Shown: piece after piece, positions 894 through 59,184 of the stretch
Numbering within the stretch: the stretch's first letter is position 1
Layout: each line of letters opens with the position of its first letter
Made by a program: the position numbers and the translations under genes
Virus record (IMG/VR): IMGVR_UViG_3300040856_002888
Location: 53,598-117,597 of that record
DNA: 64,000 bases
DNA from: a virus
Direction: 5' to 3' (one strand)
The notes under the pieces: generated by a model
What the model was told of the DNA's origin: nothing
Seen by the model: only the letters and a program-made list of their open reading frames with translations
Database searches by the model: none

Positions 894-1223
894 ATGACTG
901 AAAGAACAAACGAAGAAATAGTTACCGCAATTAAGGAAGCATTAGAAGATTATGTACAACCAGCAGTGGCAGAACATGGCGGACATATAGACTTTGTAAG
1001 CTTTGATAACGGCACTGTTGAATTAATGCTTAGTGGAGCATGTAGTGGTTGTGCAGGCAGCATGTACACATTGAAGCAGGGTGTAGAAGGTATGTTAATG
1101 CATTTTGTACCCGAAGTTACTAATATTATTGCTCAAGATGATCCAAACAGCTCTGTTGATCCTTTCTATCAACACGATCCATTTATGTATCAAGATTATT
1201 ATTTTAATGAAGAGGATGAATGA
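894..1223 (+). CDS. NifU C-terminal domain (Nfu-type) Fe-S scaffold protein
   Basis: The 109-residue protein has the Nfu fold signature: a helix (EALEDYVQPAVAEHGG), a strand with DFVSFDNGTVELML, then the cluster-binding CxxC in GACSGCAGS (about residues 48-56). Nfu proteins hold a transient 4Fe-4S cluster between two monomers and deliver it to target enzymes. The last ~30 residues, rich in Asp, Tyr and Phe, are an unusual tail. The ATG follows AAAAGG. It overlaps the next gene by four bases. An A-type carrier at 58810 is a second Fe-S delivery protein in the same phage. Confidence 0.88.
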   Translation: MTERTNEEIVTAIKEALEDYVQPAVAEHGGHIDFVSFDNGTVELMLSGACSGCAGSMYTLKQGVEGMLMHFVPEVTNIIAQDDPNSSVDPFYQHDPFMYQDYYFNEEDE

Positions 1224-8708: not shown

Positions 8709-8813
8709 ATGCGTGACGGTAAAAACTTGGCTATTTGGTTATTGTGCATGTTTATTATATACATATTAATTTGGTCAGCAGAAATTGCTTTACACGTACC
8801 TGATCTAAACTAA
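8709..8813 (+). CDS. Single-span membrane micro-protein
   Basis: 34 residues: a charged start (MRDGKN) then one hydrophobic segment (LAIWLLCMFIIYILIW, about residues 7-22) and a short polar tail. It ends just before the tmRNA. The ribosome binding site is weak (GTAAGAG). Could be a holin-like or accessory membrane peptide; no family recognised. Confidence 0.45.
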   Translation: MRDGKNLAIWLLCMFIIYILIWSAEIALHVPDLN

Positions 8814-8814
8814 T

Positions 8815-9124
8815 AACGATGACGCTGAACAAAAGCTGAACTTGGACGCCGGTTCGATTCCGGCCACCTCCACCACACATTTTTCAACATACGGGGGTGT
8901 TCAGGTATTCGACAAGCAGTAAGTAGGGATGCTGAGTTATCCGGAGCAAGCTCGGTTAATGCAAGAAACTTTTATAAGTGCAAACGAAAATTTTGTACCT
9001 GGAGCATTTACTTCATTAGACATGTCAATGGCTAGTGAAGGTGAATTACTCGCAGCCTAATACGTTGTGAACTCCGCGGCATAGTCCACCGGGCAACAGA
9101 ACGGACTATCCCTCCTGCTTTTTT
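8815..9124 (+). ncRNA. ssrA: Circularly permuted (two-piece) tmRNA
   Basis: The acceptor piece comes first: T stem-loop GCCGG-TTCGATT-CCGGC (8848-8864), acceptor strand CACCTCC (8865-8871), discriminator A and encoded CCA (8873-8875). After a short spacer the coding piece begins at 8893 with GGGGGTG, which pairs with all seven acceptor positions (one G-U). The D-like region follows (TTCAGGTATTCGACAAGC). The tag reading frame opens with the resume codon GCA at 8980 and ends with TAA at 9058-9060: 26 residues beginning ANENF and ending ELLAA. A 7-bp hairpin (9081-9087 with 9103-9109) and six Ts (9119-9124) close the gene. The outer 5' limit and the P2 helix are not resolved. Confidence 0.9.
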
Positions 9125-15192: not shown

Positions 15193-15447
15193 TTGGCATT
15201 CTTTAAGAAAAAAGATTATAAAAAAAATTATATATATAATAATTTATTCATTCCAGGAATAGCAGTAGTTGTTCAAAATAATAATACAGATGCTGCCCTA
15301 AGGAAATTCAAGAAAAAAGTACAAGAAGAAGGAATACTTCAAACAGTAAGGAACAAACAAGAATACGTGAAACCTAGCGAAAAAAGGAGGAAAGCAAAAG
15401 CTGCAGCAAAAGCTAGGTGGATGAAACGTCTTTATAAACCTACATAA
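15193..15447 (+). CDS. rpsU: Ribosomal protein bS21
   Basis: 84 residues from a TTG start. From about residue 24 the sequence follows the bS21 pattern: AVVVQNNNTDAALRKFKKKV (core helix 1), then EEGILQTVRNKQEYVKPSEK, then a Lys/Arg/Ala-rich C-terminus. bS21 sits at the 30S platform beside the anti-Shine-Dalgarno helix and helps initiation. Phage-encoded bS21 is known from pelagiphages and other marine viruses. The extra ~20 N-terminal residues (FFKKKDYKKNYIYNN) are unusual. A viral copy may bias host ribosomes toward phage mRNAs. Confidence 0.88.
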   Translation: MAFFKKKDYKKNYIYNNLFIPGIAVVVQNNNTDAALRKFKKKVQEEGILQTVRNKQEYVKPSEKRRKAKAAAKARWMKRLYKPT

Positions 15448-15455
15448 GAGGCAAA

Positions 15456-16028
15456 ATGGCAATGCATTCGGAGCTTTGGTTTCCTAATGTAATCTGGTCT
15501 GCAATAGTTCATGCGGTTGATAATACTGCAATTAAAAAATGGGCATATGAGAAAAAAAGAAATGATCCTGGCAGACGAGTAAGTAATTATATTGGCTACC
15601 AATCTACTGATATCAAGCAAAAAGAAAATACAGAAATAGATACTTTGATTGACTATGTCAACAAGGAAGTGTATAATTGTTGTGAGCAAGTGGGTTTACC
15701 ACAATGTAAAATTTATAATATATGGTTAAATATAAATCCTCCTGGTGCATATAATACCCTGCATAATCATGCTGGAGCGTTATTTAGTGGTGTCTATTTT
15801 GTAGATGCCACTCCTGACATGGGAAATTTATTATTTGAAAGAGGTGACGGAGCAGAATATTTTTTACCAGACAACCAACAACAGTTAACTTACTATAATT
15901 GTAGTAAAACAATGTATGCCGCCAAAACTAATGCCCTATATATTTTTCCAGGGTGGTTAAAACATTGTGTAGAGGGTAACAAAACAAATCAGGATAGGAT
16001 TAGTTTATCATTTAATTATGGTATTTAA
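15456..16028 (+). CDS. 2OG-Fe(II) oxygenase superfamily protein
   Basis: 190 residues. The double-stranded beta-helix fold shows NPPGAYNTLHNHAGALFSGVYFVD (about residues 88-111), where a His supplies a metal ligand, and a distal FPGWLKHCVEGN ... RISLSFNYGI with the second His and the Arg that binds 2-oxoglutarate. This form is common in T4-like cyanophages and pelagiphages. Substrate unknown. SD AGAGGC upstream. Confidence 0.82.
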   Translation: MAMHSELWFPNVIWSAIVHAVDNTAIKKWAYEKKRNDPGRRVSNYIGYQSTDIKQKENTEIDTLIDYVNKEVYNCCEQVGLPQCKIYNIWLNINPPGAYNTLHNHAGALFSGVYFVDATPDMGNLLFERGDGAEYFLPDNQQQLTYYNCSKTMYAAKTNALYIFPGWLKHCVEGNKTNQDRISLSFNYGI

Positions 16029-16036
16029 AAATTTTT

Positions 16037-16105
16037 TATAAATAGTTTTATAGCAGATGCCAATGGTGGGTCTGCTATAGATCTTGCTTAATTAAGGAGA
16101 AAAAA
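16037..16105 (+). promoter_or_regulatory. Late-type promoter and structured leader of dnaK
   Basis: TATAAATA at 16037-16044 is a perfect T4 late consensus. A hairpin follows: 16049-16057 pairs with 16071-16079 (9 bp), enclosing TGCCAATGGTGGG in which CCA (16060-16062) can pair with TGG (16067-16069). Then come ATCTTGCTTA and AAGGAGAAAAAAATG. The leader of hsp20 (17997-18061) has the same motif order, the same loop and the same 3' segment but a stem of different sequence that still pairs. The covariation indicates a functional RNA structure. Function unknown; regulation by temperature or stress is a guess. Confidence 0.7.
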
Positions 16106-17986
16106 ATGGCAAAAGTAATCGGCATTGATCTCGGTACCACTAATAGTTGTATTGCCGTATTAGAGAACAAACAACAAAAAATCATCGAAAACGCAGACGG
16201 TGGAAGAACAACCCCGAGCATTGTGGCATACAAGGACGATGAAATCCTAGTCGGAACAAGTGCAAAACGACAGGCAGTCACTAATCCAAAAAACACCCTA
16301 TTTGCTGTTAAAAGATTGATAGGTAGGAAACACAGTGACAAAGAAATACAAAAAGACATTAAAAAATTACCTTACGAAGTTGTTGCATCTGCAAATGGAG
16401 ATGCATGGGTACGTGCCAATGGAAAAGACCTTGCTCCACAGCAGGTATCGGCAGAAATTCTTAGAAAAATTAAAGAATATGCCGAAAGCTATTTAGGCGA
16501 AACTGTTACACAAGCTGTAATTACAGTGCCTGCATACTTTAACGACAGTCAACGACAGGCTACTAAAGATGCTGGTAAGATCGCCGGACTAGAAGTATTA
16601 CGCATTATTAACGAGCCTACTGCTGCTGCACTTGCATATGGTGTAGATAAAGACAGCAAGAAAGATATGAAGATTGCTGTATATGATCTAGGTGGTGGTA
16701 CATTTGATATTTCAATTATTGAGATTGCAGATGTAGACGGCGAAAAGCAATTTGAAGTACTTAGCACAAATGGTGATACATTTTTAGGCGGTGAAGATTT
16801 TGACCAAGCTATCCTAGATTATCTAGTTGCAGAATTTAAAAAATCAGATGGTGTAGATCTCAGCACAGATAAAATGGCACTACAGAGATTGAAAGAATCT
16901 GCAGAGAAAGCAAAGATTGAACTTTCAACTAATACACAAACAGAAGTTAATTTGCCATTTATTACTGCAACAACTGACGGTCCTAAGCACCTCATTGTAA
17001 AACTTACACGAGCAAATTACGAAGCAATGGTAGAAAAGTTGATTACAAGGTCAATTAACCCTTGCAAAATCGCTCTAAAAGATGCTAAACTACAAGCAGG
17101 AGATATTGATGAAATCATCCTTGTAGGTGGACAAACACGTATGCCAGCGGTACAAGCAGCAGTAGAAAAATTCTTTGGAAAAGCTCCACGTAAAGATGTC
17201 AACCCAGACGAAGCTGTAGCAGCAGGTGCCGCTATCCAAGGTAGTGTGCTTGCAGGTGATACAACAGATGTACTACTTTTAGATGTAACACCACTTAGCT
17301 TAGGTATTGAAACAATGGGTGGAGTAATGACAAAGCTGATTGAAAAGAATACTACTATTCCAAGTAAAAAGTCGCAGATTTTTTCAACAGCAGAAGATAA
17401 TCAACCTGCTGTAACTATTGTTGTAGCACAAGGAGAACGTGAATTTGTACGTGATAATAAGATGCTTGGCACATTTAATTTAGATGGCATTACACCTGCA
17501 CCGAGAGGATTGCCACAGATTGAAGTAACATTTGATATTGATGCAAATGGTATCCTAAGTGTAAGTGCTACAGATAAGGCAACTGGCAAAGAACAAGCTA
17601 TTACAATTAAGGATTCAAGTGGTCTGAGCGACGAAGAAGTAGAAAAAATGATTAAGGATGCAGAAGAGAACGCAGAAAAGGATAAGGCACAGAGAGAGCT
17701 AGTAGATACACGTAATTCTGCAGAAGCTGCTGTCCATACATATCAGAAAGACTTTGACGAAGTTAAAGACGATCTTACTGAAGACGAACGTACAAAGTTT
17801 GAAACTGCTGTAACAGAGCTACAAGAGTCTATTAAAGGTGAAGACAAAGAAGATATGACTGCAAAAGTAACTGCATTACATGAAGCAGTTGCTCCAGTAT
17901 TTGCTGCAAAGCAGAAAAAGACAGAAGCAACAACAGAAACAAATGATGACAATGTTGTTGAAGGAGAAGTTACTGAAGCTGCTTAA
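16106..17986 (+). CDS. dnaK: Molecular chaperone DnaK (Hsp70)
   Basis: 626 residues, a complete Hsp70. The ATPase domain begins [32 protein letters not shown] lies near residue 192 and [14 protein letters not shown] near 336. The linker [16 protein letters not shown] leads into the substrate-binding domain, then the helical lid and an acidic C-terminus ([13 protein letters not shown]). Both halves and the EEVD-like end look intact. No dnaJ or grpE is seen in the window, so host co-chaperones would be used. Strong AAGGAG ribosome binding site; the structured leader is shared with hsp20. Confidence 0.97.
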
Positions 17987-18061: not shown

Positions 18062-18523
18062 ATGACAAGACTAACTACTCTCGACTTACCTTCATATTAC
18101 AAAGCTACAATTGGATTTGATAAAATATTTGACGAATTAGAAAGAACTTTTGCTAATAGTCAAAGTAATTCCTATCCTCCATACAATATCGCAAAACTAG
18201 ACGATAATGAATTTGTTATCAGTTTAGCAGTAGCAGGGTTTACTATGGATGATCTAGAAATCACTAAAGAATCTAATGTGCTCCGTATTGAGGGATCATC
18301 GCCTAAAAGCGAAGACAAAGTGAATTACATCCATAAAGGTATTGGCTCTAGGAACTTTAGGAGAGAATTTGCTCTTGCAGATTATGTTGAAGTTATAGAA
18401 GCTAGACTTTCTGTAGGTATGCTAAACATTCGTTTACGCAGAGAAATTCCCGAAGCATTGCAGCCTAAAAAGATTGCAATTACTGCAGGAGAAGATTTCA
18501 CTATCAAATATAACGAAGAGTAA
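18062..18523 (+). CDS. Small heat-shock protein Hsp20 (IbpA-like)
   Basis: 153 residues. The N-terminal YYKATIGFDKIFDELERTF is the IbpA-type start. The alpha-crystallin domain runs from about residue 40 to 140 (PYNIAKLDDNEFVISLAVAGF, then FRREFALADYVEVIEARLSVGMLNIRL). It holds unfolding proteins for refolding by DnaK. Hsp20 genes are common in T4-like cyanophages. It follows dnaK and shares its leader element, so the two are probably co-expressed. Confidence 0.94.
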   Translation: MTRLTTLDLPSYYKATIGFDKIFDELERTFANSQSNSYPPYNIAKLDDNEFVISLAVAGFTMDDLEITKESNVLRIEGSSPKSEDKVNYIHKGIGSRNFRREFALADYVEVIEARLSVGMLNIRLRREIPEALQPKKIAITAGEDFTIKYNEE

Positions 18524-18534
18524 TTAAATACTAT

Positions 18535-18552
18535 AGGGAGGGCGACCTCCCT
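18535..18552 (+). promoter_or_regulatory. GC-rich hairpin with GNRA tetraloop upstream of clpS
   Basis: AGGGAGG (18535-18541) pairs with CCTCCCT (18546-18552) around the tetraloop GCGA. It stands between hsp20 and clpS, 17 bases before the clpS ATG, and has no T-run, so it is more likely an RNA-stability or processing element than a terminator. Confidence 0.55.
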
Positions 18553-18568
18553 TCAACAAGGAAACACA

Positions 18569-18880
18569 ATGACTACAGAAACAATTGAAGAAATCATAAT
18601 TGACGAAAAAATCAAACATAGCATCGAAGAACCTGGTAAGTGGAGTGTAATTTTTTTAAATGACGATCAAACCCCAATGGATTTTGTAACAGAACTGTTG
18701 ATAATTATTTTTAAACATTCAAAAGAAACTGCCGAACAAATTATGTTAACTGTTCATGAAAAAGGCAGTGCAGTTGTTGGTACCTATACATTTGAAATTG
18801 CAGAACAAAAAACTACAGAAGCGACCCTTTGTGCCCGTCAACAAGGATTTCCACTAGGAATACAAATGGAAAGGGCTTGA
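18569..18880 (+). CDS. clpS: ATP-dependent Clp protease adaptor ClpS
   Basis: 103 residues. The ClpS signature is clear: WSVIFLNDDQTPMDFVTELLIIIF, then a helix region, VHEKGSAVVGTYTFEIAEQKT and a C-terminal ATLCARQQGFPLGIQME. ClpS binds N-degron substrates and hands them to ClpAP. With ClpP (25226) in the same phage, it could redirect host proteolysis. SD AAGGAAA upstream; ho1 follows one base after the stop. Confidence 0.94.
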   Translation: MTTETIEEIIIDEKIKHSIEEPGKWSVIFLNDDQTPMDFVTELLIIIFKHSKETAEQIMLTVHEKGSAVVGTYTFEIAEQKTTEATLCARQQGFPLGIQMERA

Positions 18881-18881
18881 C

Positions 18882-19457
18882 ATGAGCTTAAAAGATCTTA
18901 CCTGGGAACATCATAAAAATGCAGAACGACAAGAATTTGTCAAAATTATGATGAGTGGTAATATACATCCTAAATTTTATGCAACATTCCTCTACAATTT
19001 ACATCCAAGATACGATCTTCTAGAAGCAATGGGCAGGGTTCATTCATTGTTTAACGACATACCGGATGTTCAACGTCATAAGCTCATCCTAAACGATTTT
19101 AATTATCTCTGGAAAGAATCTTCTCCTCCGCCAACGTTGCCTAGCACTACCGCTTACATAGAGCATATGAAGACTTGCATGAACGACCCTGACAAGATAA
19201 TGGCACATATTTACACTTTCCATATGGGGGATTTAAGCGGCGGACAAATGATTGCACGGAAAGTTCCTGGTTTAAAATCAATGTTTGATTTCAAAGGTGA
19301 TATAGATGCAATAAAAAATAAAATTAGAGAAAAACTAAATGACGATATGGCAGAAGAGGCACGCTACGCATTTGATTCTGCAACCCAACTTTTTAAAGAA
19401 ATGATGGAACTAGACTGTGAGCATTATCTGGAACAAACTGATAACATGTCAGAATGA
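18882..19457 (+). CDS. ho1: Heme oxygenase
   Basis: 191 residues. LTWEHHKNAERQEFVKIM places the proximal heme ligand His near residue 10; HMGDLSGGQMIARK (about residues 113-126) is the distal-helix signature. It opens heme to biliverdin IXa, CO and iron. The next gene, overlapping by 41 bases, is a bilin reductase that would use biliverdin, so the pair forms a pigment-making cassette as known in marine phages. Confidence 0.95.
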   Translation: MSLKDLTWEHHKNAERQEFVKIMMSGNIHPKFYATFLYNLHPRYDLLEAMGRVHSLFNDIPDVQRHKLILNDFNYLWKESSPPPTLPSTTAYIEHMKTCMNDPDKIMAHIYTFHMGDLSGGQMIARKVPGLKSMFDFKGDIDAIKNKIREKLNDDMAEEARYAFDSATQLFKEMMELDCEHYLEQTDNMSE

Positions 19458-20109
19458 CATTATAAAGATTTTTGAAGACACCTGCAGTGAATATGAAGAA
19501 CCCGGACTTGATGCTTTTAATCAGCCTGATAGTGGTTGGGTTAATCGTGTTTTTGCTAATAAATCTGTACGTAGAGCACATATTGATGTAGTTGATGCAC
19601 GTGATACACGTGGGTTATGGATGATGCATGTTTGTGTATTTCCTATCCTTACAAATCCCAGTCCTATTTACGGGTTTGATGTTATCGCAGGAAAGAACAA
19701 AATGACTGGTGCATTCCACGATTTTTCTCCAAGTGCTTATCGCATACATCCTATGCTGAATTTATATTTTGACAGTGTAAGAGATTTTGTACCTAACAAG
19801 CAGAGAGAGTTGCCAGATTGGGCTAAACGTATTTTTACTGACAAGATGCTAGCAGCAGGCAATGTCAACACAGATGAAGAAGCGCAACAGATTATTGACA
19901 TTGCAGTTGTTAACCTCCGCATGTATATGGAAGAAGTAGGAAAATACGACGATTACTTAGACGGTGACGGTGTTAAAGTTGCACAAAATCACTATTGTAA
20001 TCATCAAAAACAAAATCCACACACACCTAAAGTAATGAAGAGTTTAGGATTAGACGAAGCAATGGTTGATACATTCTGTAAGGATATGTTATTCCCTAAT
20101 ATAGAATAA
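19417..20109 (+). CDS. pcyX: Ferredoxin-dependent bilin reductase (PcyX-like)
   Basis: 230 residues from a GTG start inside the ho1 gene. The FDBR family signature is strong: LWMMHVCVFPILTNPSPIYG, then GFDVIAGKNKMTGAFHDFSPS (about residues 89-109), then NHYCNHQKQNPHTPKVMKSL near the C-terminus. FDBRs reduce biliverdin with electrons from ferredoxin. The length, gene order and non-cyanobacterial setting fit PcyX, a phage enzyme known from marine metagenomes that makes phycoerythrobilin. PebS or PcyA are alternatives that only alignment and phylogeny can exclude. Confidence 0.85.
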   Translation: MSIIWNKLITCQNDIIKIFEDTCSEYEEPGLDAFNQPDSGWVNRVFANKSVRRAHIDVVDARDTRGLWMMHVCVFPILTNPSPIYGFDVIAGKNKMTGAFHDFSPSAYRIHPMLNLYFDSVRDFVPNKQRELPDWAKRIFTDKMLAAGNVNTDEEAQQIIDIAVVNLRMYMEEVGKYDDYLDGDGVKVAQNHYCNHQKQNPHTPKVMKSLGLDEAMVDTFCKDMLFPNIE

Positions 20110-21845: not shown

Positions 21846-22091
21846 ATGCAATTAGATATTACTGGTTCAGTTGTATTTCGGCATGAGTCCTTTCCGGCTT
21901 GTGAAAAATGTGAAGAAGGAGCAGAATTAATGCGTGAACGAGGCATTAAATTTGCAACCGTCACATGCGACAAGTCTATGTTTGGATCTCTGATGAAAGT
22001 AACTAAATCTCAAGACGTTCCCCAATTTTTTGTAAAAGGCGAGTTTATTGGAGGATTGTCAGATCTAAAAACTCATCTTGAAACACTTTAA
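21846..22091 (+). CDS. Glutaredoxin/thioredoxin-like protein
   Basis: 81 residues. SFPACEKCEEGAELMRERG holds a CxxC (about residues 19-22), and VPQFFVKGEFIGGLSDLKTHL is the cis-Pro loop and last helix of glutaredoxins. It is the second such protein in the window and sits beside a peroxiredoxin, so it may be its reductant. The ribosome binding site AAAGAGGAAT is good. Confidence 0.85.
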   Translation: MQLDITGSVVFRHESFPACEKCEEGAELMRERGIKFATVTCDKSMFGSLMKVTKSQDVPQFFVKGEFIGGLSDLKTHLETL

Positions 22092-22112: not shown

Positions 22113-22604
22113 ATGATTGTACCTAACAAAACTTTTAAATTCCGTGTTGGACCCGATTGGGATGATAAATCTACTGATGATCTTTTTAAAGGTAAGCGGG
22201 TAGTAGTTGTATCATTGCCAGGTGCTTTTACACCAACCTGCAGTAGCAAACAACTGCCTAAGTACGAAGAAATGTATGATCAATTTCAAGCAGCAGGAAT
22301 TGATGCTGTATATTGTGTATCGGTGAATGATGCTTTTGTAATGAATGCATGGGCGAAAGATCTAGGCGTTGAAAAAGTAGAAATGGTACCAGACGGAGAT
22401 GGAGTATTTACACGTGGTATGAACATGCTGGTAGATAAACCTGCACAAGGCTTTGGTTTGCGAAGCTGGCGATATGCTATGGTTGTAAACAACAAGAAAG
22501 TAGAAAAGATGTTTGTCGAGGAAGGTTTGAACAATCTCGGACTTGACAGCGATCCCTACACTGAGTCTACTCCAGAAGCAGTGCTTGAATATCTTAAAAA
22601 ATAA
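22113..22604 (+). CDS. Peroxiredoxin, Prx5 type
   Basis: 163 residues. VVVVSLPGAFTPTCSSKQLP (about residues 29-48) contains the peroxidatic Cys in the TPTCS motif, and the following YCVSVNDAFVMNAWAKDL and RYAMVVNNKKVEKMFVEEG are typical of the Prx5/AhpE-like group. It reduces H2O2 and organic peroxides using thiols. Placed next to a glutaredoxin-like gene, it may protect the infected cell from oxidative stress. Confidence 0.94.
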   Translation: MIVPNKTFKFRVGPDWDDKSTDDLFKGKRVVVVSLPGAFTPTCSSKQLPKYEEMYDQFQAAGIDAVYCVSVNDAFVMNAWAKDLGVEKVEMVPDGDGVFTRGMNMLVDKPAQGFGLRSWRYAMVVNNKKVEKMFVEEGLNNLGLDSDPYTESTPEAVLEYLKK

Positions 22605-27103: not shown

Positions 27104-27910
27104 ATGAAACATTTAGTTAGTATCACAGACGCAAATATACCCTATTTACTTTCCTCAGCACATTGTATAGAAAATACATTTATAAATTACAAATTCAATA
27201 AAATTTTAACCAATTTATTTTACGAACCCAGCACAAGGACAAGCTCTAGTTTTGCAAGTGCTATGTATAAACTTGGTGGTAAAGTTATTAGCATTAACGA
27301 TGTAAATTATAGTTCTGTAGCTAAAGGTGAAAATCTTGAAGACACTATTAGGACTATGGGTACATTCTGCGATGCTATTGTATTAAGGAGCAGGACTGCC
27401 GGGGAAGCAGCAAGGGCGGCTTTTGTATCCGAAGTGCCCGTAATTAATGCTGGAGACGGTAACGGAGAACATCCTACACAAACACTAGCAGATCTATACA
27501 CTATACATAAAGAATTTGAGAGATTAGACAATTTAACTGTAACTTTTGTTGGCGATATTGAAAACGGAAGGACTGTACATAGTTTAGATAAAGCATTACC
27601 TGATTGCGAGAAACATTTCATTGATACATTTGATAAAAGCATATGGCCAGCAAGTGATGTATATTATTTGACACGGGTGCAGAAAGAACGTGGAAGTGAA
27701 GGTAGCTATCGTATGCGGAAAGAGCACATAAAACATATTCCAGATCATGCAATTGTAATGCACCCTTTTCCACGTAATGAAGAAATTCCTACTTGGTTTG
27801 ATAACGATCCTAGAGCTAGGTATTTCCAACAAATGCGTAATGGATTGATAATGCGTATTGCCGTGTTGGCTGACATTTTTACTGAACAAGATAAATACCT
27901 CGATACTTAG
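27104..27910 (+). CDS. pyrB: Aspartate carbamoyltransferase catalytic subunit
   Basis: 268 residues. The carbamoyl-phosphate site NLFYEPSTRTSSSFASAM (about residues 37-54), NAGDGNGEHPTQTLADLYTI (about 115-134) and MHPFPRNEEIP...DPRARYFQQMRNGLIMRIAVLA are the family signatures. It joins carbamoyl phosphate and Asp in UMP synthesis. It is about 40 residues shorter than typical enzymes, with the second domain trimmed between GDIENGRTVHSL and YYLTRVQKE. It starts 13 bases after the tRNA. Confidence 0.93.
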   Translation: MKHLVSITDANIPYLLSSAHCIENTFINYKFNKILTNLFYEPSTRTSSSFASAMYKLGGKVISINDVNYSSVAKGENLEDTIRTMGTFCDAIVLRSRTAGEAARAAFVSEVPVINAGDGNGEHPTQTLADLYTIHKEFERLDNLTVTFVGDIENGRTVHSLDKALPDCEKHFIDTFDKSIWPASDVYYLTRVQKERGSEGSYRMRKEHIKHIPDHAIVMHPFPRNEEIPTWFDNDPRARYFQQMRNGLIMRIAVLADIFTEQDKYLDT

Positions 27911-27928
27911 AGTATCGAAAATTTTTTT
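27901..27928 (+). terminator. Rho-independent terminator after pyrB
   Basis: CGATACT (27901-27907) pairs with AGTATCG (27911-27917); the three-base loop TAG is the pyrB stop codon. Four As and seven Ts (27922-27928) follow, so the terminator forms from the last codons of the gene. The A-tract would let it work in the other direction too. Confidence 0.75.
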
Positions 27929-27972
27929 GACCAATTTTTTTTGAACAAAATTTAAGTAAGGAAAAAGAAAAA

Positions 27973-28815
27973 ATGACACAACTTATAGACCCAGATAATT
28001 TTACCTATACCACACAAAAATTGCGGAATTTTTTTTTAGAAAAAGGATTCGCTGAAGTACACACCCAAAATAGACTATCTATCCTAGCAGCATGTGAAGA
28101 CCCGTTTAATGTTGCTACCTATAATTACGCAGGCGAAACATGGCCTCTGCCACAAACAGGACAGATGTGGTTAGAACATGAATTGCTTACAAAACCAGAT
28201 GCTAAAGGATTTTTTTGTGTAAGTACAAGTTACAGACAAGAACCTAACGCTATTCCTGGTAGACATGACATTATCTTTCCTATGTTTGAATTCGAATTTC
28301 CAGGTGATATAAACGATCTAAAAAAGATGGAATATGAGCTATGCGATTATTTAGGATTTAAACAACCTACAGAAAAAACATACGCAGAATGGCAACAACA
28401 TTATGGGCTAAAAGATGACGCCGAATTAACAGCGGAACATGAAGAAAAAATGGCTGTTCAATTTGGCACAACAATGATTACAGACTTTCCAGAATTTACA
28501 AGTCCATTTTGGAATATGAGCAGATATGATGATGGTGTACATAGCAAGAAAATAGATGTTATCCTTGGTGGAATGGAAACAATTGGTAGTGCAGAACGCA
28601 GCACAGATGTCGAAATGATGCGGGATACTTTCCATACCATAACAAATGGTGAGTATAGTGAATTACTGTACAAGTTATTTGGTAAAGACAGGGTCGAAGC
28701 AGAACTAGAAAAGTTTCTGTCATTTGAATTTTTTCCTAGAGTAGGCGGAGGCATTGGACTCACTAGAATGATTTCTGCATTGGAAAGAAATCAAACTTTT
28801 GCACAAGCTGCCTAA
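27973..28815 (+). CDS. Class II aminoacyl-tRNA-synthetase-like, asparagine synthetase A type
   Basis: 280 residues. It has class II synthetase catalytic motifs but no tRNA-binding domain: FCVSTSYRQEPNAIPGRHDIIFPMFEFE (motif 2, about residues 76-103) and VGGGIGLTRMISALE (motif 3, near residue 258). The sequence looks like the archaeal-type AsnRS-related asparagine synthetase, which makes Asn from Asp with ammonia and ATP. Lying next to pyrB and purF it could control Asp/Asn supply. An aminoacylating or modifying role cannot be excluded. Confidence 0.65.
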   Translation: MTQLIDPDNFTYTTQKLRNFFLEKGFAEVHTQNRLSILAACEDPFNVATYNYAGETWPLPQTGQMWLEHELLTKPDAKGFFCVSTSYRQEPNAIPGRHDIIFPMFEFEFPGDINDLKKMEYELCDYLGFKQPTEKTYAEWQQHYGLKDDAELTAEHEEKMAVQFGTTMITDFPEFTSPFWNMSRYDDGVHSKKIDVILGGMETIGSAERSTDVEMMRDTFHTITNGEYSELLYKLFGKDRVEAELEKFLSFEFFPRVGGGIGLTRMISALERNQTFAQAA

Positions 28816-28823
28816 AACATATT

Positions 28824-28847
28824 GGCCAGGTACGGCCTGGCTTTTTT
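28824..28847 (+). terminator. Rho-independent terminator
   Basis: GCCAGG (28825-28830) pairs with CCTGGC (28836-28841) around TACGG, followed by six Ts (28842-28847). It separates the asnA-like gene from the purine operon; a TATAAT-like box at 28863-28868 just beyond it may belong to a promoter for purF. Confidence 0.88.
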
Positions 28848-28888
28848 ACATCACTTCATAAGTATAATTTTACACACATAGAGGCAAT

Positions 28889-30322
28889 TTGTGCGGAATA
28901 GTAGGAATATTTTCCTTCGATAAAGACAGAAACGTTGTACCTGAACTTGTAAAAGCATTAATGGATTTACAAAATAGGGGACAACTAAGTGCTGGCATTA
29001 CTACATACAACGAAAACCGCAAACGCATCTTACAAACCTACAAAGACAACGGAAAAGTAGACGATGTTTTCCGTACCAACCATAAAGAAAAACTCCAACA
29101 TATAAAAAACACCTACGCAGGTAACATTGGCATTGGTCATGTCCGCTATGCTACTAGTGGAGATGACTCCGACACACTTGCACAACCTTTTGAGCGCCCG
29201 CATGGCAGATTATCAAAATGGTTTAGTATTGCATATAATGGTAATCTAGCAAATTACAGCACACTAAAATCGCAGCTAGAGTCAGTAGGCTATAACATGA
29301 CCTACGACAGTGACACGGAAGTTATCATGCATTATCTCAGCAGAGAAATGCAAACTAAGACTCCTACTGATGCACTAAACTTTGAAGAAATACTGCGAAA
29401 ATTAGATGGTGAGTTTGATGGTGCTTGGAACCTGTGTTTCCTTAATGCACAGGGTAGATTTTTTGCCAGCAGAGATAAGCACGGATTCCATCCACTAGTT
29501 TATGGCATGACAAAAGACTATCTTGTAGTTGCAAGCGAGAGTTCTGTACTAGATAATTTACAAATAAAATCATTTGATGTTCCGCCAGGATGTGCAATTA
29601 GTGTAGATATGCCAAACAAATGGTGGCACATACATAAATTTGCAGAAGCTGAGAAAAAACACTGTTTCTTTGAATATATATATTTTGGAAACAGTGGAAG
29701 TAAGATGGATGATGTTAGCTTATATCATACACGCACTGCAATAGGAGAGGCGCTTGCACAGGAAGAAACAGAATTTTATGATCCGTTTGATCAAGTTGTA
29801 GTACCTGTGCCTGAAACAAGTTTTATTGCAGCAAATAGTTACGCAAATAGCTTGCGATTACCTTACGAACAAGCTATAATAAAAAATCATCAAATAGGAA
29901 GAACGTTTATCGAAAGCAAAGATCGTCGTGAACGTGTAAAGATGAAATTTAGTTTTATTAAAGAAGTGCTTAAAGGTAAAACTGTATTCCTAGTTGACGA
30001 CAGCATAGTAAGGGGTAGCACACTAAAGGAATTAGTTGCGATACTAAAAGATTGGTGCGAAGTAAGAGAAGTACACATAAGGATAGGATGTCCGCCTATT
30101 ATCAAACCATGTTATTATGGTATAGATTTTCCAACAGAACAGGAGTTATATGCAGGAAATACTGCCCCTAGTGCTGACGATTTCAATGCTGATAGTCTGC
30201 ATTATCTTACTTTACAAGGGCTTATGAACAGCATTAGGAAAAAACAAGATCAATTATGCTCTGCTTGTATTACAGGCGAGTACCCAACACCTTACGGAAT
30301 TACGAGGATAAATGCACAATAG
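28889..30322 (+). CDS. purF: Amidophosphoribosyltransferase
   Basis: 477 residues from a TTG start, chosen because it places the catalytic Cys at position 2 (MCGIVGIFSF); GAGGCAA upstream is a fair ribosome binding site. The N-terminal glutaminase domain has GIGHVRYATSG, the C-terminal domain has the PRPP motif VFLVDDSIVRGSTLKELV (about residues 369-386). C-terminal CSACITGEYPTPYG is typical. It catalyses the committed step of purine synthesis, PRPP plus Gln to phosphoribosylamine. It heads the pur cluster and overlaps purB by 11 bases. Confidence 0.95.
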   Translation: MCGIVGIFSFDKDRNVVPELVKALMDLQNRGQLSAGITTYNENRKRILQTYKDNGKVDDVFRTNHKEKLQHIKNTYAGNIGIGHVRYATSGDDSDTLAQPFERPHGRLSKWFSIAYNGNLANYSTLKSQLESVGYNMTYDSDTEVIMHYLSREMQTKTPTDALNFEEILRKLDGEFDGAWNLCFLNAQGRFFASRDKHGFHPLVYGMTKDYLVVASESSVLDNLQIKSFDVPPGCAISVDMPNKWWHIHKFAEAEKKHCFFEYIYFGNSGSKMDDVSLYHTRTAIGEALAQEETEFYDPFDQVVVPVPETSFIAANSYANSLRLPYEQAIIKNHQIGRTFIESKDRRERVKMKFSFIKEVLKGKTVFLVDDSIVRGSTLKELVAILKDWCEVREVHIRIGCPPIIKPCYYGIDFPTEQELYAGNTAPSADDFNADSLHYLTLQGLMNSIRKKQDQLCSACITGEYPTPYGITRINAQ

Positions 30323-31601
30323 ATATACTGATCAAGAAATGGCTAGTATTTGGAGTGAGCAAGAAAAATACGAAACTTGGTTTGAAGTTGAACATAAAGT
30401 TTGTGAGATTTATGCAGACCTAGGTAAAATTCCTTATGCTACTCCCAAGACAATGGAAAGCCTACGTGAATCATGTTTTGCCGGAGATTTTGTAGGTAAG
30501 ATTGAAGAAATTGAGCGTGTTACAAAACATGATATTATAGCTTTCCTTACTCATTTATCAAACGTTATTGGAGAACCTGCAAAACACATACATTACGGAA
30601 TGACAAGCCAAGATCTTATTGATACAGCCCAAGCAATATTGGTAAAAAGATCTATCTTGTTAATCCTTAATAGACTGTCTGATCTCAAAGCTGCAATAAA
30701 AGAAAAAGCTGTCCTATACAAGCAAACAATTTGCATGGGTAGGTCACACGGTGTACACGCAGAGCCAATGACATTTGGATTAAAACTGTTAACACATTAT
30801 GCAGGATTTGATCGTTGTGCTAAAGCACTTTGGAGAGACTTACCCGAACTGGTAAGGATTAAATGCAGTGGTGCAATTGGAACATACAGCATGATTGATC
30901 CCCAGATAGAAACTACACTCTCGAGCAAACTAGGAATTCCTGCAGAAGACATCTCAACACAAGTCGTACCTAGAGATAGGCTAGCACTGTTATTCAGTCA
31001 TCTAAGCATCACGGCAAGTTGCATTGAGAGACTAGCAGTAGAAATTAGACATCTACAAAGGACAGAAGTGGGCGAAGTGATTGAAAGCTTTACACCTGGA
31101 CAAAAAGGATCCAGCGCAATGCCACACAAGAAAAATCCTATACTAACAGAAAATTTAACAGGATTAGCTAGGGCAGTCCGTATGAGCTTGACACCGGCTA
31201 TGGAGAATGTAGCACTGTGGCACGAACGAGACATTAGCCACAGCAGTTTAGAACGTATTGCACTACCTGATACGTTTACACATCTTAGTTTTGCATTGGA
31301 TCGTTTAACAGATGTTGTTAATCGTATGTATGTAAATACTGATCGTATGCGAGACAATGTTTGGTCACAAGGAGGAACATTCTTTTCACAACGTATCCTG
31401 CTTGCATTGATTGACAAAGGTATGACACGAGAAGATGCGTACAAGATTGTACAAGAAGCAGCTCATAATAACACTGATAATTTTAGATATGCTATTATGA
31501 GTAAAGACCTATTTTCAAAAGAAGAATTAAACGAATATTTTGGTTTAACACAATACACAAAGAATGTAGATTATATTTTTAACAAAGTTTTACAGGAGTA
31601 A
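30312..31601 (+). CDS. purB: Adenylosuccinate lyase
   Basis: 429 residues, full length. The fumarase/aspartase-family motif [15 protein letters not shown] (about residues 263-277) carries the mobile catalytic Ser; [14 protein letters not shown] and [16 protein letters not shown] are the other two signature blocks. It acts twice in the pathway: SAICAR to AICAR, and adenylosuccinate to AMP. It follows purF and precedes purE by three bases. Confidence 0.97.
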
Positions 31602-31603
31602 TA

Positions 31604-32092
31604 ATGGCCGATGTTGCAATAGTAATGGGTAGTATTAGTGATTGGGATGTAATGAAGGCAGCATGTGATGTGCTTGAAGAATATGGAGTAAGCTACGACA
31701 AACGTATTTTATCCGCACACCGCACACCACTTGAAATGATTGAATATAGTAAAAATGCAAAAGCAAATGGGTTTAAGGTTGTTATTGCCGGAGCAGGGGG
31801 AGCAGCACACCTACCAGGTATGTTTGCCGCAATGACAACCCTTCCTGTTATCGGAGTTCCAATCCGTACTAGCACAGCAGAAGGATTAGATAGTTTATTA
31901 AGCATCGTACAGATGCCACGTGGAGTACCTGTTGCTACAGTAGCAATTGGTAATAGTACAAATGCAGCACTATTAGCTTGTGAAATCTTAGCTTTATCAA
32001 ACAACGAACTAAGCGATAAGATTGTTGCAGCTCGTGCAAAAAGAGAAGCAGAAGTAAAGGCATTAAATGACACCGCTTGGGACAACTCTTAA
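31604..32092 (+). CDS. purE: N5-carboxyaminoimidazole ribonucleotide mutase
   Basis: 162 residues, class I Pur[16 protein letters not shown] binds phosphate; [17 protein letters not shown] and [18 protein letters not shown] hold the catalytic His and the substrate loop; [20 protein letters not shown] follows. It converts N5-CAIR to CAIR. No PurK is seen here, so the host must make N5-CAIR. It overlaps purD by 26 bases. Confidence 0.96.
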
Positions 32093-33431
32093 ACATCTTA
32101 ACCCCTGTCACGGTCGAGGTAAACGAATTATCGTCATAGGCGACGGTGGCAGGGAAGATGCGTTACGTTGGAAATTAGAAAAACACGATCATTGTATCGT
32201 GGAGGGGTTAGCTGATTTAACAGTAGTGGGACCGGAGAAAGAAATAGCAGGAGGCATTGCTGATAGGCATGCACATAAACATATTGTAGCACCGTCACAG
32301 CTTGCTGCTAGATTAGAAAGCAGCAAGCTGTGGGCTAAACAGTTTATGCAAAGGCATGATATACCTACTGCTAGATGGATGACATATACAAGGAGTCCAG
32401 ACGGTATGAATCAGGCTATTTTTGATATGGATAATATGCGTGATGACCATACACCTGTAGTAATTAAGGAAGACGGTCTTTGCGGAGGAAAAGGAGTAAT
32501 TATTGCGAAATCTAAACAAGAAGCTTGGAGCCATCTTCCACATATTTTTACTAACAATGTTTTTAATTCCCCTTCTAATAAAGTACTATTCGAAGATTTT
32601 ATTGAAGGATTTGAAGCGAGTTGTTTTGTTATGTCAGACGGAGAAAATTATAAAATGCTTCCGTTCTGCAAAGACCACAAACGATTAGGGGACGGAGATA
32701 CTGGACCTAATACAGGAGGTATGGGTGCTTATTGTCCGCATCCAGGCATAGACGAAAAACTAGCAAAAGAAATAGAAACAAAAATTGTTTTTCCAACATT
32801 AAATGGAATGCGACTAGAAGGATTGCGATACAAAGGCATCCTTTATGTTGGCTTGATGATCTCAAAAGATGGCCCTTATGTAATTGAGTACAATGTTAGA
32901 TTTGGTGACCCAGAGTGTCAAGTATTAATGATGTTAATGGAAGATGATTTATATCCATACTTAGAAGCAATCACAAATGGAACATTAGATAAATTACCAG
33001 AGCCTAAATTTAAAACAGGTGCTGCTGTAACTGTTACACTATGTTCACAGGGTTATCCCCGAGACTATGTTACAGGACATGAAATTACTGGATTAAACGA
33101 TCTTGATGATGTAGTAGTTTTCCACGCTGGTACCGAATTGAATGAGAACACTGGCAAGTATAAAACAACCGGAGGCAGGGTATTAAACGTTACTGCAGTA
33201 GGCGAAACCGTTGACCAAGCTAGCGAAAAAGTATATAATGCTATTAACAAGATCAATTTTGCAAATATGATTTACAGGACTGATATAGGAAAAAATGAAG
33301 AAAGTAACAATACAGACAAAGCTGCGAAGTGGAATCAAAGACGTAGAGGGAGAAACAATACTGAACAGTGTAGGAAAAAGTTCAAAAATCACTCACATTT
33401 CCGTAGGGCAGATCTTTTATCTAGAAGTTGA
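32067..33431 (+). CDS. purD: Phosphoribosylamine-glycine ligase (GAR synthetase), with frame-extended C-terminus
   Basis: 454 residues. ATP-grasp enzyme: [64 protein letters not shown] and [18 protein letters not shown] are in family order. The N-domain is shortened between the first two blocks. The natural C-terminus is near MIYRTDIG (about residue 408). The frame then continues 46 residues through purS in another frame. At the junction GGA AAA AAT GAA, one extra A, or a -1 slip on A AAA AAT, would put TGA in frame at 33296, overlapping the purS ATG. See findings. Confidence 0.9.
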
Positions 33432-33510
33432 GGATGATGTTGACATACATGATATTGCTAAAAATATCTTTGTCAACGAATTACTATATGACTACACTAT
33501 AGATGCGTAA
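33295..33510 (+). CDS. purS: FGAM synthase subunit PurS
   Basis: 71 residues. [22 protein letters not shown] is the first strand-helix unit of PurS and [17 protein letters not shown] the second. PurS bridges PurL and PurQ in the three-part FGAM synthase. Its start lies inside the 3' part of the open purD frame (137-base overlap) and its end overlaps the SGNH-like gene by eight bases. The separate small PurS is the form used with small PurL. Confidence 0.85.
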   Translation: MKKVTIQTKLRSGIKDVEGETILNSVGKSSKITHISVGQIFYLEVEDDVDIHDIAKNIFVNELLYDYTIDA

Positions 33511-34213
33511 AATTTTAATATTAGGCTGTAGCCATTCTTTAGGAAGTTTTAAACCCTCTGGTACAAATGAAGAATACCTTGCACATGAATATGGCTGGTG
33601 GTCATTTGTAGACTCGATACAAGACGATAAAAAAATTATTTTCGCAGGTGCCGGACTTAGTTGGATGTTTTGGAGTTACCTAATTTATAGTAAGTTTGTA
33701 AATATAAATGATTATGACTTTTGTATTATTCAAGACACCGCAAATGGTAGAATGTCATTGCTAGATGTTAATTGGAAAAATAAATTAAAAATTAAAAGTC
33801 TAAGTAAAAACATAGAATGGCATGGATTATTGCATCCAAGTGAAAGCAACATTATTATCAATAATGCTAATGCTATGATTAATATTATTAGAAAATTTTC
33901 ACTTACAAAAAAGTTAGAAACATTGTATAAATTTTGTGAAGCTATAATAAATTCTCCAACTAATGATTTAGCTTATATTACTCACCGTAATTGGCTGCTT
34001 GAGAAATTTCAACAGCAAAAAATTCCTGTTTTTATTTTCAATATGGAACAGGATAATATTGATTCAATACCGTATGGTCAAAAACTTGGTTGCAACGGTT
34101 TTATCTATAGATTAAGACAATATAGAACATTTCACAGCGGTCACTTTACAGAAATAGGAAACCAAAAAGTTGGAAACGCTGTGAATAAAGAATTGAGTAA
34201 TTATGTTAACTAA
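33503..34213 (+). CDS. SGNH-hydrolase-like protein
   Basis: 236 residues inserted between purS and purL. ILILGCSHSLGSF at the start looks like the nucleophile block of SGNH hydrolases, and FHSGHFTEIGNQKVGNAVNKEL at the end like the catalytic-His block. The middle is rich in Lys and Ile. It may be an esterase acting on a surface glycan or an unrelated protein. Why it splits the FGAM synthase genes is unclear. Confidence 0.6.
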   Translation: MRKILILGCSHSLGSFKPSGTNEEYLAHEYGWWSFVDSIQDDKKIIFAGAGLSWMFWSYLIYSKFVNINDYDFCIIQDTANGRMSLLDVNWKNKLKIKSLSKNIEWHGLLHPSESNIIINNANAMINIIRKFSLTKKLETLYKFCEAIINSPTNDLAYITHRNWLLEKFQQQKIPVFIFNMEQDNIDSIPYGQKLGCNGFIYRLRQYRTFHSGHFTEIGNQKVGNAVNKELSNYVN

Positions 34214-35795
34214 AGAAGAAGAAAAATTAATTGAAAATAGGATATGGCGTAAACCCTTTCCAACTGAACAAGCTGTTTTTGATGCTATGTGGAGCGAACA
34301 CTGTAGCTATAAAACAAGCAAACCGCACTTAAAAAGGTTGTACACAGATAACAAATACGTTTTCTCTGGTCCTGGTGAAAATGCTGGTGTAATCAGCATA
34401 GGCGGTTCGGATAGGATTGCATTTAAAATGGAGTCACACAATCATCCTAGTTATATTGAGCCGTTCCAAGGTGCAGCAACAGGTGTAGGTGGCATACTAC
34501 GAGATATATTTACAATGGGTTTTAGACCAATTGCATTAACTAACAATTTATTCTTTGGTGATCCTGCACTATCAGCTGATCCTAAACGTGTAATGGATGG
34601 TGTAATAAAAGGTTTAACACATTATGGTAATTGTGTTGGTGTGCCAACAGTTAGTAGTAAAATTTTATTCCATAAAAGTTATGAAAAAAACCCACTTGTA
34701 AATGCAATGGCCGTAGGTCATACACGAGGTCCTATGTTAAAATGTGGAGCAAAAGATCCAGGCAAGCTCTTATATGTAGGTGCGAAAACAGGTCGTGATG
34801 GCATTGGCGGTGCAGTAATGGCCAGTGATAGCTTTACAGATGGGGTAGACTTACGCCCTACTGTACAAGTAGGAGATCCATATTTAGAAAAATTATTAAT
34901 AGAAGCCTGTCTTGAACTAGCTGAAACAGGGCATGTAATTGCAGCACAAGATATGGGCGCAGCAGGACTTACAAGTTCAGTAACAGAAATAGGCATTAAA
35001 GGTGGATCTGCAACATTTCAAGGAAAATGTGGTATCGAACTAGATCTAGACAAAGTACCATTGAGAGAATCAGGAATGGAAGCATGGGAAATACTGTTAA
35101 GTGAGTCTCAAGAGCGTATGCTGTTTGTTGTACACGAATGGGGTATAGAAGAAGCAAAAGCAATTTTCCGTAAATGGGATTTAGATTGTGTTGAAATTGG
35201 TCATTTGACAGAAGATGGAAATTTTGTAGTTTACAAAGATAGCAAAGTTTGCTGTAATTTTCCACTTAGTGCCTTAGAATACCCAGAGCTAGAAAGACCG
35301 TGGACTCCTCGATTTAATCGTGCAGAAATACAATCAGAGTACAGGTATGTTACCGAAAACGTAGTATCACAATTTGATAGTGAAGTTCAAGGAAATACTA
35401 TAAAAGGTATACGTGATGAAGTTGCCGTAATAGAAATCCCTAAGAAAGACAAACGTGGTAAGGATAAACGTATTGCTATATATACAGATAGCTTTCCCTA
35501 CCACAGTTTTGTAAATCCAGATCAGGGTGCTGAATTTTGTATAAGCTCCATTTATGATAAATTAGTTAATGTAGGAGCCAAACCTATTGCACTAACAAAC
35601 TGTTTAAATTTTGGCAATCCAGAAAATCCGGAAATCATGTTTGAATTTAAAGAAACAATAGACGGAATGGCCAGGATTTGTGAAAAACTTGACTTTCCTA
35701 TCGTTAGTGGCAATGTTAGTTTTTACAATGAAACTTCAGGACAAAATATTTTACCAACTCCAGTATTTGGAGCAATTGGACTAATGGAGCACTAA
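34203..35795 (+). CDS. purL: FGAM synthase subunit PurL, lacking the last domain
   Basis: 530 residues. It begins as small-type PurL (LIENRIWRKPFPTEQAVFDAMWSEHCSYKTSK), followed by AIRS-like domain 1 (FKMESHNHPSYIEPFQGAATGVGG, about residues 77-100), its C-half and the second N-domain (NPDQGAEFCISSIYDKLVNVGAKP ... SGNVSFYNETSG). The chain stops after TPVFGAIGLMEH, where small PurL enzymes continue with another AIRS_C domain of about 200 residues. The next gene is purQ; no missing piece is visible in the window. It converts FGAR to FGAM with PurS and PurQ. Confidence 0.9.
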   Translation: MLTKEEEKLIENRIWRKPFPTEQAVFDAMWSEHCSYKTSKPHLKRLYTDNKYVFSGPGENAGVISIGGSDRIAFKMESHNHPSYIEPFQGAATGVGGILRDIFTMGFRPIALTNNLFFGDPALSADPKRVMDGVIKGLTHYGNCVGVPTVSSKILFHKSYEKNPLVNAMAVGHTRGPMLKCGAKDPGKLLYVGAKTGRDGIGGAVMASDSFTDGVDLRPTVQVGDPYLEKLLIEACLELAETGHVIAAQDMGAAGLTSSVTEIGIKGGSATFQGKCGIELDLDKVPLRESGMEAWEILLSESQERMLFVVHEWGIEEAKAIFRKWDLDCVEIGHLTEDGNFVVYKDSKVCCNFPLSALEYPELERPWTPRFNRAEIQSEYRYVTENVVSQFDSEVQGNTIKGIRDEVAVIEIPKKDKRGKDKRIAIYTDSFPYHSFVNPDQGAEFCISSIYDKLVNVGAKPIALTNCLNFGNPENPEIMFEFKETIDGMARICEKLDFPIVSGNVSFYNETSGQNILPTPVFGAIGLMEH

Positions 35796-36403
35796 TGTAT
35801 ACTGTAGGAGTAATTATATTTCCAGGCAGCAATTGTGATGCAGAAACTGTTGATTTTTTAAACACTTACACTGGATTACGGGTAAACAGGATTTGGCACA
35901 AAGATACAAACATTAAAATGCATGACATGTATATATTTCCGGGTGGATTTAGCTACGGTGATTATATGCGAGCAGGTAAACTTGCTACATTCAGTCCTGC
36001 AATTACAGAAATAGAGAGGCATATCAGATTGTATGAAAAGAAAGCACTAGGAATTTGTAATGGTTTCCAAATACTATGTGAATTAGATTTACTTCCTGGT
36101 ACATTAAGGCAAAATGAGAACTTGCAATTTATCTGTAAACCTGTTACTATATACAATGAAGACGAAGAGTATAAGGTTCCGATTGCCCACGGTATGGGCA
36201 ATTACTATCACCCACATCCAGAGTTAGTAAATGTCGCATATAGATATTCTGATAATCCAAATGGTAGTACAAATAATATTGCTGGGGTTTATAATCACCG
36301 CGGAAATGTCCTCGGACTAATGCCTCATCCTGAAAGAGCATTTAAACATTATCACGTTAGCCAAGATGGTTACAAGATACTAGAAAATTTTGCAAAGAGA
36401 TAA
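35795..36403 (+). CDS. purQ: FGAM synthase glutaminase subunit PurQ
   Basis: 202 residues. GVIIFPGSNCDAET, FPGGFSYGDYMRAGK and the nucleophile block GICNGFQILCELDLLPG (Cys near residue 87), then VPIAHGMGNYY and the terminal LMPHPERAF with the catalytic His and Glu. It supplies ammonia to PurL. It starts on the last base of the purL stop (TAATG). Confidence 0.96.
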   Translation: MYTVGVIIFPGSNCDAETVDFLNTYTGLRVNRIWHKDTNIKMHDMYIFPGGFSYGDYMRAGKLATFSPAITEIERHIRLYEKKALGICNGFQILCELDLLPGTLRQNENLQFICKPVTIYNEDEEYKVPIAHGMGNYYHPHPELVNVAYRYSDNPNGSTNNIAGVYNHRGNVLGLMPHPERAFKHYHVSQDGYKILENFAKR

Positions 36404-36404
36404 T

Positions 36405-39229: not shown

Positions 39230-39232
39230 GCA

Positions 39233-58809: not shown

Positions 58810-59184
58810 ATGTCATTTGTAATCATCACTGATAGAGCAAAAGAAAAAATTAATCAGCTATGCGAAGAAAATAATGTATTTGCCATCACACTAAATCTAA
58901 AAGGTGGAGGTTGTGCAGGATATCAATATGACTGGGGAGTTACTGATACTCCGACAAGACATGACGAAGTAATTAATACAGGAGATGGAAATTTAGCAAT
59001 AGGTAAAAAAAGTATGTTGTTCCTAATGGGTACTGAGATAGATTATGTAACAAGTATAGTAGGATCTAATTTTGACATACGAAATCCAAATGCTAAATCC
59101 AGTTGCGGTTGCGGTACAAGTGTAAGCTTTGATGTTAGTACCTTACCAACAGAGAAAAAACCAGTGTTTACGCCAACCTGGTGA
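58810..59184 (+). CDS. A-type Fe-S cluster carrier (IscA/ErpA/HesB-like)
   Basis: 124 residues. The three conserved cysteines are present: GGGCAGYQYDWG (about residues 35-46) and the C-terminal SSCGCGTSVSF (about 98-108). The core LNLKGGGCAGY and LMGTEIDYVTSIVGSNFDIRNPNAKS are typical. It delivers Fe-S clusters to apo-enzymes. It is the partner type of Nfu, also in this phage (894). Confidence 0.92.
   Translation: MSFVIITDRAKEKINQLCEENNVFAITLNLKGGGCAGYQYDWGVTDTPTRHDEVINTGDGNLAIGKKSMLFLMGTEIDYVTSIVGSNFDIRNPNAKSSCGCGTSVSFDVSTLPTEKKPVFTPTW

Follow-up and report, generated by a model that had tools for sequence, protein, structure and literature searches.

A heme oxygenase and PcyX gene pair behind HSP20-ClpS in a probable PA5oct-like jumbo phage: a possible iron/redox module of a proteostasis operon

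Introduction

Phycoerythrobilin (PEB) is a pink pigment that normally serves in photosynthesis. The locus described here raises the question of what a phage of a probably heterotrophic bacterium would do with genes for bilin synthesis. It lies in the window, i.e. the whole stretch of 64,000 nucleotides that was analysed, which comprises bases 53598-117597, about half, of a 117,597-bp virus record. A first, sequence-only reading had described a heme oxygenase (HO) gene overlapping a PcyX-like bilin reductase gene in a phage of a non-cyanobacterial host, and had named a light sensor, iron recovery from heme and antioxidant use as options.

Published work covers the biochemistry of PcyX, contigs carrying ALAS/valaS and HO-PcyX cassettes of marine phages, the cultured pelagiphage Mosig among them (PMC11480375), as well as the AX clade (PMC10151467). 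The new part is the setting, namely HO-PcyX behind HSP20-ClpS in a PA5oct-like jumbo lineage; a literature search found no paper tying PcyX/hemO to jumbo phages, chaperones or HSP20-ClpS.

Results

Identity of the gene pair

Both reading frames are open and share 41 bp, and Pfam confirmed both families (Table 1), in agreement with the sequence-only reading. The HO matched heme oxygenases in the PDB with E-values of about 1e-12 and showed 47-50% identity to the HO of Mosig. With its PF01126 match, the proximal His and the GDLSGG helix, it carries the features of the HmuO/HO-1 type.

Table 1. Features of the locus and its surroundings (positions in the window)
Feature	Position	Strand	Evidence and remarks
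NifU C-domain-like Fe-S scaffold	894..1223	+	NifU match, CSGC motif; putative assignment
Permuted tmRNA, alphaproteobacterial type	8813..9060	+	RF04321 88 bits, RF01849 52 bits
Ribosomal protein S21, conserved marker upstream of block	15193..15447	+	PF01165; PA5oct gene order
DnaK (HSP70)	16106..17986	+	PF00012 E=2e-259; 62-67% identity to alphaproteobacterial DnaK
HSP20/IbpA-type small heat-shock protein	18062..18523	+	PF00011 E=3.6e-15
ClpS, Clp protease N-degron adaptor	18569..18880	+	PF02617 E=2.2e-28; 1 bp before HO
Heme oxygenase (HO), 191 aa, ATG	18882..19457	+	PF01126 E=2.4e-19
HO His11 codon, predicted proximal heme ligand	18912..18914	+	Position by homology; kept in 155/157 phage HOs
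HO GDLSGG distal-helix motif, residues 116-121	19227..19244	+	G116, D117, G120 invariant; G121 in 156/157 sequences
PcyX-type ferredoxin-dependent bilin reductase, 230 aa, GTG	19417..20109	+	PF05996 (Fe_bilin_red) E=1.2e-14
Asp57 codon (= PcyX Asp55; Glu76 in PcyA)	19585..19587	+	Alignment; D in 80/80 relatives
His71 codon (= PcyA His88)	19627..19629	+	Alignment
Asp88 codon (= PcyA Asp105)	19678..19680	+	Alignment
Glutaredoxin-like protein, downstream of cassette	21846..22091	+	PF00462
Peroxiredoxin (AhpC/TSA)	22113..22604	+	PF08534 E=5.7e-26
IscA/ErpA-like Fe-S assembly protein	58810..59184	+	PF01521 E=8e-17

The GTG start of the reductase is backed by relatives with the same start position (M-S-x-I-W). 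Its best match among solved structures was PcyX_EBK42635 (5owg, E=4.6e-77), followed by PcyA with E=4.5e-12. All three catalytic residues, D57, H71 and D88, were identical in the 80 IMG/VR relatives compared, while every PcyA compared showed Glu at the position of D57. This Asp (Asp55) is described as specific for PcyX, and a phage enzyme lacking it makes PCB (PMC11480375).

The phylogeny that the sequence-only reading had proposed as a check bore out its assignment: in the maximum likelihood tree, the window reductase fell within the PcyX clade (26/26 tips, UFBoot 99), which is sister to alphaproteobacterial PcyA (AX clade, UFBoot 99), and apart from PebS and the PcyA of cyanobacteria and cyanophages. 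Two groups make up the PcyX clade: a pelagimyophage type (UFBoot 100), to which Mosig and 5owg belong, and the one with the window reductase (UFBoot 79). An identity as PcyA was rejected due to Asp57, the position outside the PcyA clade and a score of 83 bits against the NCBIfam PcyA equivalog with its cut-off of 206; PebS was rejected since the reductase does not lie on the PebA/PebS branch of the ferredoxin-dependent bilin reductases (FDBRs). Outside phage-like contigs no cellular PcyX was found, and the true bacterial matches were AX-type or cyanobacterial PcyA with 23-32% identity. Based on these assignments, the product of PcyX should be PEB.

In total, 267 IMG/VR relatives were found. 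Compared to the nearest relative, dN/dS was 0.04 for HO and 0.06 for PcyX, both indicating purifying selection. Judged by sequence, HO-PcyX is thus a real gene pair under selection.

Three variations of the locus were also observed. Two different heme oxygenase genes precede PcyX at L056 (1129-1707 and 2629-3255) and at L347. Tandem bilin reductases follow HO at L335:6987-8368 (also L336 and L353), the first a PcyX with Asp and the second a 222-aa paralogue with Glu there, as in PcyA, at 41% mutual identity; this is possibly a two-product or PCB-making variant. Finally, the ClpS-HO stretch of window 18400-19400 was 72-89% identical to locus L003, compared to 91-100% for both flanks and PcyX, a mosaic divergence that suggests recent recombination within the operon.

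Phage lineage

Between 57 and 60 proteins of the record matched two contigs of 335,231 bp and 357,559 bp in largely collinear order, compared to 18 matches for Mosig. The major capsid proteins of these contigs were 89% identical to each other and 35% to that of Mosig, and both values for Mosig speak against membership in its pelagimyophage type. Identity of 67-70% to the capsid protein of the 358-kb contig was found in the Pseudomonas PA5oct group (about 287 kb; PA5oct 67%), in Vibrio phage 2.275.O (349 kb) and in Sinorhizobium phage Phosso (469 kb). A related major capsid protein and a genome of more than 200 kb, which together define a PA5oct-like phage here, were found for the 358-kb relative and its 335-kb sister. 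Since no capsid or terminase gene was detected on the 117.6-kb record of the window, which is a fragment, its assignment rests on synteny; accordingly, it is most likely part of a T4-like PA5oct/Phosso-type jumbo phage of about 335-360 kb. Most HO-PcyX relatives are fragments as well, and since the loci were collected by similarity to the window, their shares of jumbo and Mosig type are uninformative on abundance.

Some further gene content was recorded. Window 27104-40024 comprises a large purine and pyrimidine biosynthesis block (carbamoyltransferase, AIR synthase, GARS, SAICAR synthetase, AIR carboxylase, adenylosuccinate lyase and OMP decarboxylase families), and window 55739-56827 a gene for a UvdE-like UV-damage endonuclease with 69% identity in both long relatives. 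Outside the window, at 33321-38801 of the record, genes for a tryptophan-halogenase-like flavoprotein and radical-SAM proteins lie close to genes resembling 2OG-Fe(II) oxygenases; together they may form a peptide-modifying cluster. A glutamine riboswitch (RF01739) was found on the 335-kb jumbo phage contig (L228:6916-6975).

Host and light-related genes

The phage probably infects a heterotrophic proteobacterium. Cultured members of the jumbo lineage infect Pseudomonas, Sinorhizobium and Vibrio, and no phycobiliprotein or psbA/psbD-type family was found across the 21 related records searched, two of them longer than 330 kb. In this respect the non-cyanobacterial host of the sequence-only reading was supported, while its argument from the permuted tmRNA proved weaker than stated: permuted tmRNA is also present in some cyanobacteria, and alone does not exclude such a host. 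The tmRNA nonetheless bears on the host, because it fits the alphaproteobacterial model. The same model gave 145 bits in the 335-kb contig, and the 358-kb contig carries a beta type. The host could still belong to SAR11.

Two other routes to the host failed. DnaK was similar to alphaproteobacteria generally and gave no resolution, and the four PcyX contigs occurred in metagenome-assembled genomes (MAGs) whose phyla are unrelated to one another (Halobacteroidaceae, Neomarinimicrobiota, Pirellulales, Rickettsiales), hence binning is no evidence. One of the MAG contigs, the 335,231-bp jumbo phage contig (L103 / PBPT01000016.1), lies inside a Neomarinimicrobiota MAG that serves as species representative, which poses a contamination risk for gene-content studies.

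Based on these data, a role in supporting the phycobilisomes of a cyanobacterial host, as in cyanophages, can hardly be credited. The combination of HO and FDBR is classical in cyanophages, and HSP20 is common there, but the reductase belongs to PcyX and not to PcyA/PebS, psbA/D is missing in the records searched, the capsid is closest to proteobacterial jumbo phages and the tmRNA is of proteobacterial type.

The sequence-only reading had also suggested looking for ferredoxin and bilin-binding proteins. Among the related records, no ferredoxin (Fer2) gene was found in 24, and Pfam revealed no biliprotein candidate in those searched. GAF domains were absent from 20 virus records, with matches only on other contigs of a MAG. 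A supply of chromophore for a light sensor (phytochrome) of host or phage is accordingly regarded as very improbable, all the more as PEB-loaded phytochrome is fluorescent and non-photoswitching. The idea draws on the hemO-pcyA-alaS-bphP island of Bradyrhizobium ORS278, where enzymes of these types work for a phytochrome, and on the phage CB_2 enzyme, which supplies Cph1 (PMC11480375).

Operon context and the slot behind ClpS

The order of genes around the pair is conserved. Among dereplicated jumbo-type relatives, HO lay beside PcyX in 92 of 94; ClpS preceded HO in 81 of 88, most commonly with a 4-bp overlap, and HSP20 lay upstream in 70 of 76. Besides peroxiredoxin, the window carries two glutaredoxins and NifU- and IscA-like Fe-S assembly genes. 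A scan for promoters and terminators gave nothing above shuffles. Ferrochelatase was rejected as a partner of the cassette, as it occurs in the Mosig type only and not in the jumbo type, with one match on another MAG contig.

The HSP20-ClpS block is also present without HO in PA5oct, where ClpX, S21 and two unknown genes lead to HSP20 and ClpS and a gene with a hypothetical annotation comes next, and in Phosso, where thymidine kinase stands between HSP20 and ClpS and an unknown gene follows ClpS. Among annotated phages, ClpS was restricted to the jumbo group, except for two Acinetobacter-named records and one unannotated faecal-phage record. HSP20-ClpS is thus probably older than the insertion of HO-PcyX, and the linkage of both may be passive. 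The idea that the genes following ClpS in these two cultured phages are distant HOs was rejected, since neither aligns with HO; the one in PA5oct is an Fe/Mn superoxide dismutase (PF02777, E=1.2e-21).

For a survey of this slot, three further scans were combined with the earlier loci to 188 dereplicated ClpS genes, of which 145 were followed by HO and 39 by another gene. Iron/redox genes made up 15 of these 39: a SUF operon (5), cysteine desulfurase (6, in five cases then peroxiredoxin), peroxiredoxin (3) and the iron permease FTR1 (1). The remaining 24 were other genes, including glutamine amidotransferase (10) and IMPDH (3). On phage contigs, the SUF-type Fe-S assembly operon was located directly behind HSP20-ClpS at L280, L349, L433, L435 and L326.

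The iron/redox families of the slot were found at 0 of 206 upstream positions, but they had been picked after viewing the slot, and an open all-Pfam scan of 102 upstream genes was used as control. These genes were mainly ClpX, S21, IF3 and GroEL, with two NifU_N and one ferritin-like match among the best 25 of 35 families. The resulting ratio of 15/39 in the slot to at least 3/102 upstream (best 25 of 35 families; Fisher p=1.9e-7) comes from partly non-independent lineages, from the data that gave rise to the hypothesis, and from an upstream sample and not a genome-wide background, so that the enrichment is suggestive but not proof.

It is tentatively proposed, at somewhat less than even odds, that PA5oct-like jumbo phages use the position behind HSP20-ClpS as an exchangeable slot for iron/oxidative-stress genes, with HO-PcyX as its occupant in aquatic members. 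Alternatively, the site could be a hot spot at which host-derived metabolic genes of all kinds gather, with HO-PcyX functionally untied to chaperones or redox. Glutamine amidotransferase, IMPDH, cytidylyltransferase, NUDIX and SbmA at the same site would fit such a hot spot, which nonetheless appears improbable in view of the excess of iron/redox genes, of the dismutase in the cultured PA5oct and of the usual overlap of ClpS and HO.

Discussion

With a probability of roughly 0.5, we regard HO-PcyX in this probable PA5oct-like phage of a heterotrophic proteobacterium as an iron/redox module of a proteostasis operon. According to this proposal, HO would open heme to biliverdin, CO and Fe2+, and PcyX together with host ferredoxin would carry out the four-electron reduction of biliverdin to PEB. 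With ClpX/S21, DnaK or GroEL, HSP20 and ClpS as operon partners, the pair could remove the heme of damaged or degraded host hemoproteins; the freed iron would serve iron and Fe-S enzymes of the phage, while biliverdin would be drawn into a reduced bilin able to scavenge oxidants.

Among the uses listed by the sequence-only reading, iron recovery and antioxidant use gained support from the slot, and the light sensor lost ground with the absence of GAF domains from the virus records. The slot evidence is the reason why an iron/oxidative-stress role is favoured over light sensing. Against this main reading stand the lack of a Fer2 ferredoxin gene in the 24 records and the 24 slots with other genes, by which the slot is not solely iron/redox.

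The supply of heme points to another possibility. A gene for ALAS (5-aminolevulinate synthase) is located on the same record outside the window (record 15397-16650, minus strand), and also on the 335- and 358-kb relatives with 71-73% identity. It stands beside a DUF454 protein gene, a pair conserved in both relatives. Since ALAS yields new heme precursors, it suits bilin production better than iron salvage, and where a phage first supplies heme synthesis and then turns heme into a bilin, the bilin may be what it needs. ALAS would boost the tetrapyrrole flux, and HO and PcyX would convert it to PEB, which would serve as antioxidant or regulator or bind to a host protein. The retention of PcyX, although HO suffices for iron release, and the published three-gene hemO-pcyA/X-valaS cassettes (PMC11480375) agree with this. 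However, ALAS is about 56 kb away from HO-PcyX in the record of the window. It lies less than 4 kb from the pair at L017, L076 and L194, but only 2 of 48 relatives have it in the 10 kb upstream, and with no biliprotein candidate in the searched records, the bilin as goal is considered rather unlikely. On present evidence, it is inseparable from iron salvage.

If the iron/oxidative-stress role holds true, viruses of non-phototrophs would be using phycobilin synthesis against stress, independently of light. From the operon context and the replacing genes comes a concrete, testable answer to the question of what such phages do with it, and PcyX turns out to be conserved in a jumbo-phage lineage whose cultured relatives PA5oct and Phosso are tractable, and not in pelagimyophages alone.

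Comparison with known systems

With PcyA and PebS of cyanophages, the window reductase shares the phage-borne FDBR family, while these differ in identity (23-28% for PcyA), in Glu instead of Asp (PcyA), in clade and in their cyanobacterial hosts. The PcyX EBK42635/5owg cassette from marine metagenomes is much closer, with the same family, a full-length alignment, Asp/His/Asp and an HO partner; it is of the pelagimyophage/Mosig type, whereas the PcyX of the window belongs to the jumbo-phage group and lies behind HSP20-ClpS. Pelagibacter phage Mosig EXVC030M likewise has adjacent overlapping HO and PcyX genes (QOI69018/QOI69017; 50% and 51% identity) and a tmRNA. Its genome, however, has 141 kb, its cassette adjoins 2OG oxygenases, ferrochelatase and a neck protein with no ClpS nearby, and it encodes its own 2Fe-2S ferredoxin. 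The pelagiphage-like hemO-pcyA/X-valaS contigs carry the same three gene families on one contig, and the available part of PMC11480375 makes no mention of a chaperone/ClpS operon; the window differs from them by its distant and inverted ALAS and its probable PA5oct-like jumbo phage. PA5oct (Arenbergviridae) itself shares the S21-HSP20-ClpS block and the related capsid of the lineage, but carries its superoxide dismutase behind ClpS where the phage of the window carries HO-PcyX.
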